From the NCBI GenBank assembly GCA_029262295.1, contig JAJCZR010000037.1, forward strand, positions 1-64,000: a stretch of 64,000 bases of DNA. Reading direction: 5' to 3'. This stretch comes from Deltaproteobacteria bacterium. Its GTDB lineage: Bacteria > Desulfobacterota_D > UBA1144 > Nemesobacterales > Nemesobacteraceae. How positions within the stretch are numbered: the first letter of the stretch is position 1; each line of letters begins with the position of its first letter. Under the pieces are notes generated by a model that ran no database searches, was not told the origin of the DNA, and worked only from the letters and a program-made list of their open reading frames with translations. The position numbers and the translations under genes are program-made. This document shows, one piece after another, positions 16,123-28,603 of the stretch.

Positions 16123-16872
16123 ATGAACAACAAACTTCCTTATATAGACTGCAGATTAATTTTCATTTTGATTGTTTTTATATTCTTTTCAAACAGCATT
16201 GCTTTAGCAGAAAAGCAATTTTTTTATAAATGGAAAGATGACAAAGGCACCACACATGTAACTGACAATAAAGATAATGTGCCTCAAAAATTCAGAAATA
16301 AAGTAGTGAAATATGAGAAAAAAGAAGGTCTTGAAAAACAAGGAATAAAAACATATTACGATAAAGGCCAGAAGCTAGTACTTAAATATAAATATTTTTT
16401 GTTGGGATTACTGCTTATTGTTTCAACACTTATTCTTTTAATAAAAGTTTTTAGAAAAACAAAAGAACTTAACCTTAAAAGAAAAACAATTTCAACTGAA
16501 AAAATTATCAAAAACTCTGGAATTGAAAATATGGGCGCTGATGAATTTAAAGATAATGTAAAAGAAATCCTTATTAGAAGCGGCTATAAACTTGCTCAGA
16601 TAGATGCCCCTTTTAAGACTTTTTCTGACTTTATTGGTGAAAAGAAAGGTAAGAAATATACCGTTCTCATTAGCACCGCATTAAATGAAATATCAAAAAA
16701 CCAAATCAGTGATCTTGAAAGCGAAAGAGACAAATATGGATGTGATGGTTCAATTGCGATTGCAAAATCAGGATTTGATAATTCAGCAGCCTCTTTTGCC
16801 AAAGAAAATGGCTGTAAAATTATTGACCGAAAGACAATAGCAAAAGCTATTTTAGGTAAGTCACAAATCTAG
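16123..16872 (+). CDS. Signal peptide + DUF4124-like domain + TM + cytosolic Mrr-like restriction-endonuclease-fold domain
   Basis: QFFYKWKDDKGTTHVTDNKDNVPQKFR (DUF4124-like), hydrophobic helix, then MGADEFKDNVKEILIRSGYKL...SFAKENGCKIIDRKTIAKAI (Mrr-like layout). Confidence 0.6.
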   Translation: MNNKLPYIDCRLIFILIVFIFFSNSIALAEKQFFYKWKDDKGTTHVTDNKDNVPQKFRNKVVKYEKKEGLEKQGIKTYYDKGQKLVLKYKYFLLGLLLIVSTLILLIKVFRKTKELNLKRKTISTEKIIKNSGIENMGADEFKDNVKEILIRSGYKLAQIDAPFKTFSDFIGEKKGKKYTVLISTALNEISKNQISDLESERDKYGCDGSIAIAKSGFDNSAASFAKENGCKIIDRKTIAKAILGKSQI

Positions 16873-17755: not shown

Positions 17756-18742
17756 GTGTTACAAATAATGAGTGCAAATGAAGTAACCCATGATGATGTT
17801 CAGGAATTTTATGGTGAAGCTGCAAAAAAACCACAAGCAGATCTTTGCTGTCCAACAAACTACCCGATTGAAGATACAAGCCATATTCCACAAGAAGTAA
17901 TAGACAGGTTTTATGGTTGTGGCAGCCCTGTAGGAATTGCGGAAATAAAAAATGGAGAAACTGTTGTTGACCTTGGATCAGGTGCCGGGATTGACTGCTT
18001 TATAGCTGCAAAAAAAGCAGGTGCTGTAGGTAGTGTTATTGGAATTGATATGACAGATGAGATGCTCGAGGTTGCAAGAAAAAGTAGTGAAAAAGTTTCT
18101 GAAAACCTTGGATATAGAAATGTTGAATTCAGAAAAGGTTATCTTGAGGAGATTCCCGTTGATAGTGAAACAGTTGATCTTATAACCTCAAACTGCGTTA
18201 TTAATCTTTCTCCAAACAAAGTAAAAGTTTTCCAGGAAATGATCAGAACACTTAAAGATCATGGAAGAATTCTTATCTCAGATGTTGTTTCTGAGGTTTC
18301 GCTTCCAAAAGAAATAAGGGAAGACAAACAACTTTGGGGAGAATGCCTTGGTGGGTGCGTCACAGAAAACCAGTTAATCTCATATCTTGAACAGGCAGGT
18401 TTTTATGGAGTTGAAATACTTGGGAAAACATTTTGGAAAACTGTTGAAAAAATCAATTTTTATTCTGTTTCCGTAAGGGCATTTAAACATAACAAATCTG
18501 ACAAATGTGTTTATGAGGGGCAAAAAGCAGTTTATTGTGGCCCATTTAAAGTAATTATAGATGATGAAGGACATGTCTTTCCAAGAAACGAAGAAGTAGA
18601 AGTATGCAGCGATACAGCTTCAAAATTAAGCAGGCCACCATATAAAATGTTCTTCAATATAATTGAACCTGATGACAAAACAGGGAATTCATGCTGCACT
18701 CCAGGAGCAAATGGTTTATCAGACAGCCCATCTTGTTGCTAA
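17756..18742 (+). CDS. arsM: ArsM-like arsenite methyltransferase of an arsenosugar-biosynthesis-type cluster
   Basis: GETVVDLGSGAGIDCFIAAKKAG SAM motif, DLITSNCVINLSPNK, Cys-rich C-terminus SCCTPGANGLSDSPSCC; probable start MSANEV at 17768. Confidence 0.88.
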   Translation: MLQIMSANEVTHDDVQEFYGEAAKKPQADLCCPTNYPIEDTSHIPQEVIDRFYGCGSPVGIAEIKNGETVVDLGSGAGIDCFIAAKKAGAVGSVIGIDMTDEMLEVARKSSEKVSENLGYRNVEFRKGYLEEIPVDSETVDLITSNCVINLSPNKVKVFQEMIRTLKDHGRILISDVVSEVSLPKEIREDKQLWGECLGGCVTENQLISYLEQAGFYGVEILGKTFWKTVEKINFYSVSVRAFKHNKSDKCVYEGQKAVYCGPFKVIIDDEGHVFPRNEEVEVCSDTASKLSRPPYKMFFNIIEPDDKTGNSCCTPGANGLSDSPSCC

Positions 18743-18764
18743 GTCATCTTAGGAGAAGGTTAAT

Positions 18765-19100
18765 ATGTCATACTATGATCCATCTGATCTAAAGAGATTT
18801 GCTGAAGTTGGTAAATTCAGCAAAGAACTTATGGATAAGTTTTTTGAATATTACAATAGTGCAGTTGGTGAAGACGGCGCCTTAACAAAAAGAGAGAAAT
18901 CATTAATTGCTCTTGCTGTAGCTCATACTGAACAGTGCCCTTATTGTATTGATGCATACACTACTCAGTGCCTTGAATCAGGCGCTGATCCTGAGCAGAT
19001 GACTGAAGCAGTACACGTTGCGGCATCAATGTCCGCAGGAATAAAGTTAATCCATGCCCTACAGATGCAAAATTCACTCAAAAAAAAGGGTGCCCTTTAA
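18765..19100 (+). CDS. AhpD/carboxymuconolactone decarboxylase-like protein, arsenosugar-associated peroxidase-like type
   Basis: LTKREKSLIALAVAHTEQCPYCIDAYTTQCLE CXXC motif; between arsM- and arsS-like genes. Confidence 0.87.
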   Translation: MSYYDPSDLKRFAEVGKFSKELMDKFFEYYNSAVGEDGALTKREKSLIALAVAHTEQCPYCIDAYTTQCLESGADPEQMTEAVHVAASMSAGIKLIHALQMQNSLKKKGAL

Positions 19101-19125
19101 AACTTTCTTTCAAACTATTTCGTAG

Positions 19126-20166
19126 GTGTTCTTAATGAGCCAGTCAACAAGTGTAGAAAAAATATCCAATAAAAACTCCCACAAATATAATTTTGTTGAT
19201 AAATTCAAAAGAAGTGGCCTGAAACCTAACCCTCTTACAGTTGAAACTCTTCAGGTAAATGTCACAAAGCTTTGCAACCAGACATGTGTTCACTGCCATG
19301 TTGATGCATCACCTAAAAGAAAAGAACAATTGAATATTGATGGGGTAAATAGATGTATTGAGATTTTAAAGGAACATCCATCAATAAAAAATCTGGACTT
19401 AACAGGCGGTGCCCCTGAGTTAAATCCACATTTTGACTATTTTGTGGAAGAGGCAAAAAAACTGGGTGTGCATGTGATGGTAAGGCACAACCTCACTGTT
19501 ACTCTGGATGGAAATCCCGTAACAGGGGAAGAGAAAACCTACCTTCCTGATTTTTTTGCTGAGCATAAAGTAGAAGTTATATCTTCACTTCCATATTACC
19601 AGGAGTATTTTACAGATAAACAAAGAGGTAAAGGAGTTTTCGAAAAAAGCATTGAGTCAATAAAAATGCTTAATTCCAGGGGATTTGGAAACGGCAATAG
19701 TGAACTCATGCTCAACTTTGTCTATAACCCGGCGGGCGCATATCTTCCACCATCTCAGGAACAACTTGAAATTGATTTCAAAAAAGAGCTTCACAACAAA
19801 TATGGAATAACCTTTAACAAGCTTTTTGCTATAACCAATATTCCAATTAACAGGTTCAGGACGCAACTACTTAAAATAGGGGCTTATGAAGAATATATGG
19901 AAAAGCTTGTAAACGCCTTTAACCCAGCTGCCGCCGAAGGAATAATGTGCAGAAACCTTATAAGTGTGGATCACGATGGGAAAATATACGATTGTGATTT
20001 CAATCAACAGATGATGAACATGGAAGTCGAAGTTGATGGTGAACCACTTACAATCTTTAATTTTAATATGGAAAAAGCACTTAAAAGAAAAATTAGATTT
20101 GGCCCGCACTGTTTTGGCTGCACAGCAGGAGCAGGAAGTAGTTGCGGGGGAACTATCTCGGAATAA
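19126..20166 (+). CDS. arsS: Arsenosugar biosynthesis radical SAM protein ArsS-like
   Basis: LCNQTCVHCHVDASPKRKE radical SAM CXXXCXXC, DLTGGAPELNPHF, C-terminal HCFGCTAGAGSSCGG; likely start ATG 19135. Confidence 0.9.
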   Translation: MFLMSQSTSVEKISNKNSHKYNFVDKFKRSGLKPNPLTVETLQVNVTKLCNQTCVHCHVDASPKRKEQLNIDGVNRCIEILKEHPSIKNLDLTGGAPELNPHFDYFVEEAKKLGVHVMVRHNLTVTLDGNPVTGEEKTYLPDFFAEHKVEVISSLPYYQEYFTDKQRGKGVFEKSIESIKMLNSRGFGNGNSELMLNFVYNPAGAYLPPSQEQLEIDFKKELHNKYGITFNKLFAITNIPINRFRTQLLKIGAYEEYMEKLVNAFNPAAAEGIMCRNLISVDHDGKIYDCDFNQQMMNMEVEVDGEPLTIFNFNMEKALKRKIRFGPHCFGCTAGAGSSCGGTISE

Positions 20167-20175
20167 ACTACAGTT

Positions 20176-20871
20176 ATGTGCGGCAATAAATCAGAAAATG
20201 CATTAATAATTTTTGTAAAATATCCCGAAAAAGGAAAGGTAAAAACAAGGCTTGCAAAGAAAACAGGGGAAGCAAAAGCAACGGGAATTTATTCTATTGT
20301 AGCAAAATATATTATTGATAAATTTTCAGGTCCTGATTTTTATAAAACGTATATTTACTACTCACCACCACAAAGAGAAAAAGAACTAAAAGACTGGCTT
20401 TTGAATCCCGAAGTGCAGTATTTTCCTCAAAAAGGAAATTCCCTTGGCGAGCGGGTTTCAGATGCTCTCCAAAACACTATAAAAAAAGGTGCAAAGAATA
20501 TAGTAATTATCGGGACAGATTGCATAGATATCACAGTTAAAGACATACAGACAACTTTTGAGAAGCTCTCACGCAATACCTCGCAGATTGTAATTGGCCC
20601 GGCAAGGGATGGAGGGTATTACCTTATTGGGTTAAATGCTTTCAGAAAAGAACTATTTGAAGATATAGACTGGAGCACAGAAAAGGTATTGCCGCAAACA
20701 ATTGAGAAAATTAAAAAAAGTAAATTAAACTACAACCTCATGCATACATTAAATGATATTGATGAAATTGAAGACATAGACTTTGATTCGTTAAATAAGA
20801 TTGATTTAGAGGTAGCGAAAAGAATAAACTCAATAATTGTAAATGATCAGGTAGCAAAGGGGGCAATATAA
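20176..20871 (+). CDS. TIGR04282-type glycosyltransferase, arsenosugar biosynthesis-associated
   Basis: ALIIFVKYPEKGKVKTRLAKKTG, IIGTDCIDIT, GPARDGGYYLIGL. Confidence 0.88.
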   Translation: MCGNKSENALIIFVKYPEKGKVKTRLAKKTGEAKATGIYSIVAKYIIDKFSGPDFYKTYIYYSPPQREKELKDWLLNPEVQYFPQKGNSLGERVSDALQNTIKKGAKNIVIIGTDCIDITVKDIQTTFEKLSRNTSQIVIGPARDGGYYLIGLNAFRKELFEDIDWSTEKVLPQTIEKIKKSKLNYNLMHTLNDIDEIEDIDFDSLNKIDLEVAKRINSIIVNDQVAKGAI

Positions 20872-21396
20872 ATGTTGTGCAAATCGAGATCAATTATCTT
20901 TTTTACTTTAATGATTTCAATTCTTTTTTCTTCCTGTAGTAATCAAAGTGGGAATGGGAAAGATTATAAATCAAAAGAAAAAGAAATAAGCTTTAATGCA
21001 CCTTCTTTAACCAATGATAAAGAATTCACTTTTAAAGATTTTGAGGGCAAACCAACTATACTAAATTTTTGGGCTTCCTGGTGTGTTCCATGCAGGGATG
21101 AGATGCCTTTTCTGGAAGAGACCTGGAATGAATTAAAGGGTAGGAATATAAACATCGTTGGAATTAATGTGATGGATGATAAAAAAGAAGCCTTAAGTGT
21201 TCTTAAACAGTTCAATATAACTTATATAAATTTGTTTGATCAGAGTGGCGACATTTCAAGAAAGTTTGGCGTGCTTGGGCTTCCTGCAACTATTTTTATA
21301 AATAAGAGTGGTAAGGTGGTGAAACAAAATTACGGACCGTTTCTTGGTGAACAAGGAGAAAAACAGTTCCACAATTTTGTTGGGGAAATACTCTAG
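20872..21396 (+). CDS. TlpA/ResA-family thioredoxin lipoprotein
   Basis: Lipobox-like LFSSCSNQ; TILNFWASWCVPCRDEMP thioredoxin motif. Confidence 0.92.
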   Translation: MLCKSRSIIFFTLMISILFSSCSNQSGNGKDYKSKEKEISFNAPSLTNDKEFTFKDFEGKPTILNFWASWCVPCRDEMPFLEETWNELKGRNINIVGINVMDDKKEALSVLKQFNITYINLFDQSGDISRKFGVLGLPATIFINKSGKVVKQNYGPFLGEQGEKQFHNFVGEIL

Positions 21397-22149
21397 ATGG
21401 AATTTAGTATATTAAATGTAGGAGGTGCTTTTCTTGCAGGGCTAATATCTTTTCTCTCACCATGTGTTCTTCCCCTTATGCCTGGATATCTTTCTATAAT
21501 AACTAAACTTTCCTACGAAGATCTCACTGAAAACGAGAACATCTCAAAGTTTTCAACAATATTTATTCCGAGCCTTGTATTTGTCTTGGGTTTTTCAACT
21601 GTATTTATTTTACTCGGGGCATTTTCTTCTCAGGTTGGAAATTTTCTTTCAGCAAATAAAACCCTGATCCTAAAAATAATTGGGATATTGATAATCCTGT
21701 TTGGAATTTTCTCATTAGAATTAATAAAAATACCTTGGCTCTATAGAGAAAAAAGAGTTGATTACAAAGCAAACAACAGGGGAGGTTTAATAAGCACATA
21801 TTTTTTGGGATTTGCATTTGGATTTGGCTGGACGCCTTGTGTAGGGCCAATTCTTGCTTCGATCCTCCTTTATGCAAGCACTGCTGAAGGAAGCTTTAGC
21901 GGCCCTTTTTTACTTTTTATTTATTCACTCGGTCTTGGCGTTCCATTTATTTTAACTGGCTTGGCATTCTGTCAGGCACTTAACACTTTTAAATCAATAA
22001 GAAAACACTATCAGTATTATAAGTATATTGTTGGTGGGGCACTAATTTTGATTGGAATATTAATGGTTACCAACAACCTTTTTCAACTTAATATCTATGG
22101 ACAAAAAGTCCTTGATACCTTTGGAATTGATTTCTGGAAGAACTTCTAG
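21397..22149 (+). CDS. ccdA: CcdA-family thiol-disulfide membrane reductase
   Basis: [42 protein letters not shown]. Confidence 0.94.
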
Positions 22150-22262: not shown

Positions 22263-23552
22263 ATGTGTGAATATCAAAAAGACATGAGACAGGCTGCACT
22301 TAAGTATCACAGTACTGGAAGGAAAGGAAAGCTTGAAGTTTTACCGACCAAACCATGCAAGACTTCATGGGATCTCTCTCTGGCCTATTCACCCGGAGTT
22401 GCTGAACCTTGTAGAGAAATAGAAAAAGACGAAAATCTCGCATATGAATATACAAACAAGGGGAACCTTGTAGCAGTAATTTCCAATGGCACAGCAGTGC
22501 TTGGCCTCGGAAATATTGGGGCACTTGCAGGAAAACCTGTAATGGAAGGGAAAGGCGTGCTTTTCAAAAAATTTGCTGACGTTGATGCGTATGATATTGA
22601 ATTGAATGTAGAAGATCCGGATGAACTTATAAAGACTGTTAAGTATCTTGAACCCACATTTGGTGGAATAAATCTTGAAGATATAAAAGCCCCGGAATGT
22701 TTTTATATTGAAGATGTATTAAAAGAAGAAATGAACATTCCTGTTTTTCATGATGACCAGCATGGTACAGCTATTATTTCTGGTGCCGGGCTTTTAAATG
22801 CGTGTGAGTTTGCAGGGAAAAGTATGGGCGAGCTAAAAATGGCATTTAATGGTGCCGGGGCTTCTGCTATTGCCTGTGCTGAGTTTTTCATTACACTCGG
22901 TGCGAAAAAGGAAAACATTATTATGTGTGATAGTAGAGGGGTAATTTACAAAGGAAGGAAAGAAGGTCTTAATTCTCAAAAAGAAAAATTTCTAGTGGAA
23001 ACAGGGAAAAGAACAATTGAAGATGCACTTGTTGGAGCTGATGTTTTTGTCGGACTTTCAAGCGGCGGAGCAATAACCAAAGATATGGTTAAAACTATGG
23101 CTGATAACCCTATTATATTTGCAATGGCAAATCCCGACCCTGAAATACTCCCTCCCGATGCAAAAGAGGCTAGAAGTGATGTAATCACGGCAACAGGAAG
23201 ATCGGATTATGCAAACCAGGTAAATAATGTTTTAGGTTTCCCTTTTATCTTTAGAGGTGCACTTGATGTAAGGGCAACTTCAATTAATGAAGAGATGAAA
23301 GTGGCAGCGGCAAAATCACTAGCAGCGCTTGCCAGGGAACCTGTGCCATTGTCAGTTGCAAAAGCATATGGAGTTGAGTCTTTTGAATTTGGTCCTGAAT
23401 ATCTTGTGCCTAAACCTTTTGACCCCAGAGTATTTGTATGGGAGTCATTAGCCGTAGCTAAAGCTGCAATGGAAAGTGGTGTGGCAAGAGTGCAATTAGA
23501 TCTGGATGTTTACAAAAAGAAATTAGAAAAGAAAATGGAAGAGCTAATTTGA
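22263..23552 (+). CDS. maeB: NAD(P)-dependent malic enzyme (no phosphotransacetylase domain)
   Basis: [55 protein letters not shown] 22247-22253 supports start 22263. Confidence 0.93.
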
Positions 23553-27608: not shown

Positions 27609-28157
27609 ATGAAAATATTTAAAACCATTTATAGAATTATTACGCTTGGATTAATAATATTTCTTTTATTCATAATGTACAATGCGCTCTTTGGTGAAAA
27701 GAAGATTGCCACTTTCTCACCTCTGGTAGGAAAACCCGCACCAGAATTCTCTCTTAAAACTTTTGACGGAAAAAAGGTTAAACTCTCCGATTATAAGGGA
27801 AAGGCACTTTTGGTAAATTTTTGGGCTTCTTGGTGTAATCCATGTAAAGTGGAAGCCCCAGCACTTGAGAAATCCTATAAAGACCTTTCCGGCAAAAATG
27901 TTGAATTTCTTGCAGTGAATGTACTAGATGATCAGAAAAGTGCTAAAAGATATTTATCCTTGTTTGGGGGATCGTTCCCACATCTATACGATGAGGATAA
28001 AATAATACATTTAGATTACGGAGTAGAGGGAGTTCCTGAGACTTTCTTTATAAACCCGGAGGGGATTATCACTGATAAATATAGAGGGCCCCTAACAGAA
28101 GATATAATTGCTGTATTTATCAAAAAAGCACTAACGCTTAATGGAGAAACTTCTTGA
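27609..28157 (+). CDS. ccmG: Thiol-disulfide oxidoreductase, CcmG/DsbE/ResA family
   Basis: N-terminal TM, ALLVNFWASWCNPCKVEAP, GVEGVPETFFINPEG; followed by ccmH. Confidence 0.9.
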   Translation: MKIFKTIYRIITLGLIIFLLFIMYNALFGEKKIATFSPLVGKPAPEFSLKTFDGKKVKLSDYKGKALLVNFWASWCNPCKVEAPALEKSYKDLSGKNVEFLAVNVLDDQKSAKRYLSLFGGSFPHLYDEDKIIHLDYGVEGVPETFFINPEGIITDKYRGPLTEDIIAVFIKKALTLNGETS

Positions 28158-28603
28158 AAATAATATTTATTTTGATCCTTATTATTCTCTCCAACCCTTT
28201 ACATTCTTACTCAGATACAGTTGAAGACCAGGTAACCGATATTGCCGGGGAGCTTTTATGCCCAGTCTGTCAGGGGCAAAGTGTTGCTGAATCAAACTCA
28301 CAGCTTGCCCAGGATATGAGGGCAACAATAAGAAAAAAACTGAAGGAAGGCGAATCAAAAGAAGAGATAATAAGTTATTTCAGGGCAAGTTATGGTGACA
28401 CTATTCTTGGTTCACCCCCACTAAAGGGAATTAACCTTTTTTTGTGGTTGCTTCCTGTTATATCACTTTCAATTGGAGTAATTATTATTTTTAGAGTTCT
28501 TCAAACCTATAAAAAGCCGTCTGATGTAACTAATAATGAAAAACCTGATCCTGAATATATTGAAAAAATTGAAAAAGAACTAGAAGATTCAAAAGATACT
28601 TAA
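28154..28603 (+). CDS. ccmH: Cytochrome c-type biogenesis protein CcmH
   Basis: ELLCPVCQGQSVAESNSQLAQDMRATIRKKLKEG LRCXXCQ-type motif. Confidence 0.94.
   Translation: MKIIFILILIILSNPLHSYSDTVEDQVTDIAGELLCPVCQGQSVAESNSQLAQDMRATIRKKLKEGESKEEIISYFRASYGDTILGSPPLKGINLFLWLLPVISLSIGVIIIFRVLQTYKKPSDVTNNEKPDPEYIEKIEKELEDSKDT

Follow-up and report, generated by a model that had tools for sequence, protein, structure and literature searches.

Gene content of the locus

The window analyzed in this work, a stretch of 64,000 nucleotides, belongs to contig C37 in a genome of 2.2 Mb (G000, 98.8% complete), and its named relatives place the host organism in the phylum of Candidatus Dadabacteria. Six open reading frames follow one another on the + strand between positions 17768 and 22149. 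The first encodes an ArsM-like arsenite S-adenosylmethionine methyltransferase (17768-18742; PRK11873, 4e-72; AsSugarArsM, 2e-51), the second an AhpD/CMD-fold CxxC protein of the TIGR04169 'arsenosugar biosynthesis-associated peroxidase-like' family (18765-19100; 159 bits, curated NCBIfam cut-off 120), the third the radical SAM protein ArsS, TIGR04167, with a C-terminal DUF3641 (19135-20166; 410 bits, cut-off 300; PF04055 and PF12345), and the fourth a DUF2064 glycosyltransferase-like protein, TIGR04282 (20176-20871; 199 bits, cut-off 134). These are followed by a TlpA/ResA-like thioredoxin-fold lipoprotein (20872-21396; Redoxin, 5e-24; lipobox FSSC; active site WCVPC) and by the thiol electron transporter CcdA (21397-22149; DsbD_TM, 74 bits, cut-off 27). 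Two of the starts were read from the sequence as probably lying further in, the ArsM ATG at 17768, located 11 bases after an AGGAG ribosome site, and the ArsS ATG at 19135. The successive gaps are 22, 25 (34 to the likely ArsS ATG), 9, 0 and 0 bases, the last two being the junctions on either side of tlpA. The ORF coordinates and the NCBIfam and Pfam matches confirm the identities, order and zero-gap junctions of the six genes given in a first-pass annotation of this DNA.

The same annotation had described the first four genes as the known arsenosugar set, and the cut-offs passed by TIGR04169, TIGR04167 and TIGR04282 bear this out. Judged by its family matches, the tandem ArsM-TIGR04169-ArsS-TIGR04282 is the set already named by NCBIfam for arsenosugar biosynthesis and is known rather than new. 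The ArsM-like protein is clearly related in sequence to the arsenite methyltransferases and scores below the specific curated cut-offs, both for its best model, PRK11873 arsenite methyltransferase (243 bits, cut-off 263), and for AsSugarArsM (175 bits, cut-off 400). The first arsenosugar steps are performed by SsArsM and SsArsS in Synechocystis, according to work cited in PMC8552651. The window has the same four families in tandem as the NCBIfam set and the ArsM/ArsS system of Synechocystis PCC 6803, but its ArsM falls under the cut-off of the arsenosugar-specific ArsM model, and the second glycosyltransferase family, TIGR04283, is found elsewhere in the genome, where one match on contig C73, outside the operon, exceeds the cut-off (196 bits, cut-off 182). 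A search for the Acr3 arsenite exporter found none.

The terminator scan gave no terminator-like site between the six genes, its single match falling inside ccdA, and neither promoter nor terminator matches exceeded the level expected by chance from shuffled sequences. The co-transcription that had been called strongly suggested by the spacing is thus a plausible prediction from that spacing.

Upstream of the series, between gmk and a HAD gene, positions 16123-16872 encode a protein anchored in the membrane, which begins with a DUF4124-like segment and contains an Mrr_cat domain resembling restriction endonucleases.

CcdA and cytochrome c maturation

The first-pass annotation had proposed that TlpA and CcdA form an attached envelope redox branch that may serve arsenic chemistry. 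Such a dedicated branch would supply electrons for arsenic reduction or for an exported arsenical step, and the zero-gap junctions around tlpA speak for it, as does the known interaction of trivalent arsenicals with thiols. Against it, ArsM and ArsS act in the cytoplasm, and the genome has a single ccdA alongside its System I genes for cytochrome c maturation. Exactly one DsbD_TM match is present in G000 (the sole PF02683 match, at 21415-22068, within CcdA), and exactly one DsbD_TM protein occurs in 50 of the 58 genomes of the phylum. The DsbD_TM domain of CcdA carries one conserved Cys per half; among 50 phylum sequences the cysteine of the motif SPCxxPLxP is kept in 48 and that of WTPCxGP in all 50; the WCxPC motif of TlpA is invariant among 25 phylum members.

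The window also contains ccmA, ccmB, ccmC, ccmE, ccmF and ccmH-like genes, read from their translations, which together correspond to System I. A second TlpA-like protein of the ResA/DsbE family with a VPETF motif, read as CcmG (27609-28157, + strand), lies directly before ccmH (28154-28603, + strand), the two occupying 27609-28603 and overlapping at 28154; CcmH was recognized by its LLCPVCQGQS motif and recurs after ccmG in the outgroup loci. In cytochrome c maturation the electrons for CcmG or ResA come from CcdA/DsbD (PMC3884852). Because CcdA is the sole DsbD_TM protein of the genome and the ccm genes, with ccmG-ccmH, lie nearby, a role in cytochrome c maturation is very probable for it, irrespective of any other that it may have. 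The window resembles the CcdA-ResA pair of B. subtilis and the DsbD-CcmG pair of E. coli in both CcdA cysteine motifs, in the thioredoxin-fold lipoprotein and in the nearby ccmG-ccmH; it differs from them in that a free-standing CcdA, and not DsbD, accompanies the System I ccm genes, and in having an extra TlpA ahead of ccdA.

A different identity was also considered for the CcdA-like protein, that of an organoarsenical permease of the ArsG type through which the product would be exported. Efflux of organoarsenicals is the function of ArsG (PMC9144182), and the NF040495 ArsG model matches the window CcdA at 40 bits, which is in keeping with a distant membrane homology to the permease of ArsEFG. 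This score is far below the NF040495 cut-off of 200, the canonical CcdA cysteine motifs are nearly invariant, and orthologues are present in relatives with no ars genes at the site; moreover, the Ccm system would be left without a reductant transporter. We consider this identity extremely improbable, and it was rejected on the model score and on the orthologues at ars-free loci.

The site in related genomes

The malic enzyme gene maeB (22263-23552, + strand; PRK12861, 559 bits), a conserved syntenic partner of ccdA, adjoins it in loci of the phylum both with and without ars genes. Six loci (L121, L123, L124, L125, L126 and L128) are free of ars genes at this site and have tlpA-ccdA with maeB adjoining. 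Two of these, L125 and L126, keep the flanks of the window in the order gmk, HAD, tlpA, ccdA and maeB, and their empty sites between HAD and tlpA measure 192 bp and 152 bp, respectively, with no trace of ars-gene remnants detected there by tblastn. The class-level outgroup f8 (L113-L119) shows the order ccdA-maeB-ccmG-ccmH, and in three of these loci tlpA and ccdA share 1-4 bases. The neighborhood looks inherited because the same tlpA-ccdA occupies this place in relatives that have no ars genes there. On the maeB tree the presence of ArsS at the site needs two changes, the simplest solution being one gain and one loss, and genus g15 (L125 and L126) is nested among the ArsS-bearing f7 genera with strong (starred) support.

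The question of whether tlpA-ccdA occurs only rarely beside the ars genes, which had been offered as a way to refute the arsenic-serving redox branch, received a mixed answer. Within the phylum, CcdA is found downstream on the contig in 27 of 33 ArsS loci, following the glycosyltransferase gene, which favors a dedicated branch; TlpA is found there too in only 11 of the 33. The six loci that lack a downstream CcdA comprise four that are cut off by the end of a contig and two (G006 and G008) in which a divergent ArsS lies elsewhere; in G005 the ars genes and ccdA are on separate contigs. Outside the phylum, a profile built from 50 Dadabacteria CcdA sequences found no CcdA in any of 29 ArsS loci, 24 of which extend at least 2 kb downstream, and TlpA gave only two matches in these 29 loci, both below 20 bits and at least 3 kb upstream. 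In the loci compared, the tlpA-ccdA pair does not travel with ArsS beyond one lineage, nor is it absent where ArsS is absent. Paired TlpA is also missing from the genomes of the sister genus g2 and of f5, although ArsS persists in them; their only good TlpA match is a CcmG-like gene located some 7-8 kb away from ccdA in those genomes that have the two on one contig. Literature searches on CcdA or TlpA in connection with arsenic, and on arsenosugar and deoxyadenosyl, turned up no paper describing a link of this kind. A redox branch devoted to arsenic is very unlikely, and synteny and copy number were the grounds for rejecting this candidate.

A third explanation limits the connection to regulation: arsenic exposure or thiol stress would raise both modules through co-transcription, and the adjacency would have been selected for expression and not for a shared reaction. 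The lack of detected terminators between the six genes agrees with it, as do the tight or overlapping junctions of the glycosyltransferase gene with tlpA or ccdA in the window and in g2; in most g2 genomes the reading frames of the glycosyltransferase and ccdA overlap by 4 bases, the paired TlpA being absent. Against it, most f7 genomes have 50-120 bp between the glycosyltransferase gene and tlpA, other genes intervene in several, and the ORF list shows no ArsR-type regulator gene beside the set. We give this coupling a modest chance of being correct, and it is compatible with the explanation that we prefer.

Phosphate uptake genes are found directly 3' of TIGR04282 in several loci. A PiT phosphate transporter lies between the ars genes and tlpA in L088 (5721-6848), L120 and L131 (8738-9871), and PstS-PstC with an ABC gene occupies this place in L132 (8409-11826). 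This arrangement fits the entry of arsenate via phosphate transport, and the intervening genes count against a dedicated redox branch.

Two probable modules at one locus and variants of the arsenic gene set

The explanation that we prefer, and hold to be highly probable, is that the ars genes came to lie ahead of a pre-existing cytochrome c/thiol unit, so that their adjacency is inherited and positional and there is no dedicated arsenic redox branch. ArsM would methylate As(III), ArsS would add a nucleoside-type group derived from its radical SAM chemistry to the methylated arsenic, and the sugar part would be processed by TIGR04282 with the TIGR04283 protein encoded elsewhere in the genome; the TIGR04169 protein would be a putative redox protein associated with the pathway. 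The last two genes would be the ancestral tlpA-ccdA pair of the lineage, in which electrons from cytoplasmic thioredoxin would pass through CcdA to periplasmic thioredoxin-fold proteins, that is, to the TlpA lipoprotein and, most importantly, to CcmG. The ars genes, placed upstream of this unit and lost again in at least one genus, would now probably be read through into tlpA-ccdA, the shared transcript being a consequence of position. The Dadabacteria phylum is thereby added to the range of the arsenosugar gene set, which there occupies a stable position on the chromosome. The locus also illustrates that a zero-gap operon can mislead, and that copy counting and empty sites in relatives help to separate inheritance from function.

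There is evidence that runs counter to the positional explanation. Beyond the 27 of 33 loci with a downstream CcdA and the overlapping frames of most g2 genomes, the genera that retain this ArsS have it beside ccdA more often than would be expected under free shuffling. Conservation extends, however, to the flanking gmk-relA and maeB synteny, and inheritance alone can therefore explain the adjacency of ArsS and ccdA. TIGR04282 precedes tlpA in some f2 and f3 genomes without this ArsS, which suggests that the placement of TIGR04282 may be older than the ArsS tree indicates. There is a small chance of a weak functional tie of ArsS and the glycosyltransferase to CcdA, as the three persist together in lineages without ArsM and a paired TlpA. 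A stronger version, which we regard as improbable, is that the transcription unit of the only thiol-electron transporter in the cell has captured the arsenosugar genes and that CcdA acquired a genuine function in handling arsenicals in those genera; if this were true, an increase in arsenic metabolism would be accompanied by more periplasmic reducing power and more cytochrome c maturation.

A better question raised by these comparisons is what ArsS uses in the species that lack ArsM. The AhpD-ArsS-TIGR04282 genes are kept in the 14 genomes of g2 (G014-G027; L073, L089, L091, L094-L102 and L104) and in f5 (G011 and G012; L071 and L072), and ArsM is absent anywhere in the g2 and f5 genomes at E 1e-20. 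With ArsM absent, their ArsS has to rely on a methylated arsenical that is imported, on a different methyltransferase or on some other substrate. Most g2 loci encode a TIGR00027/LCM-type SAM-dependent methyltransferase of 276-287 aa that is convergent to ccdA (L097, 5181-6011, and its equivalents), which may or may not replace the missing ArsM. One g2 genome has an IS200/IS605-type TnpB-like transposon protein, identified by sequence reading, between ArsS and TIGR04282 (L095, 5276-6505).

Family f2 presents another variant, in which ArsM follows a radical SAM/SPASM domain in a fusion protein (L120, 193-2703; L131, 5534-8065; L133, 34-2556; also G004, contig C59, and G005, contig C21). No NCBIfam cut-off is reached by this fusion among the matches listed. 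The product is one protein of ~840 aa whose radical SAM/SPASM domain is unlike ArsS; it is followed by TIGR04282 and in several cases by the PiT phosphate transporter, and it could be an unrecognized enzyme of organoarsenical biosynthesis.
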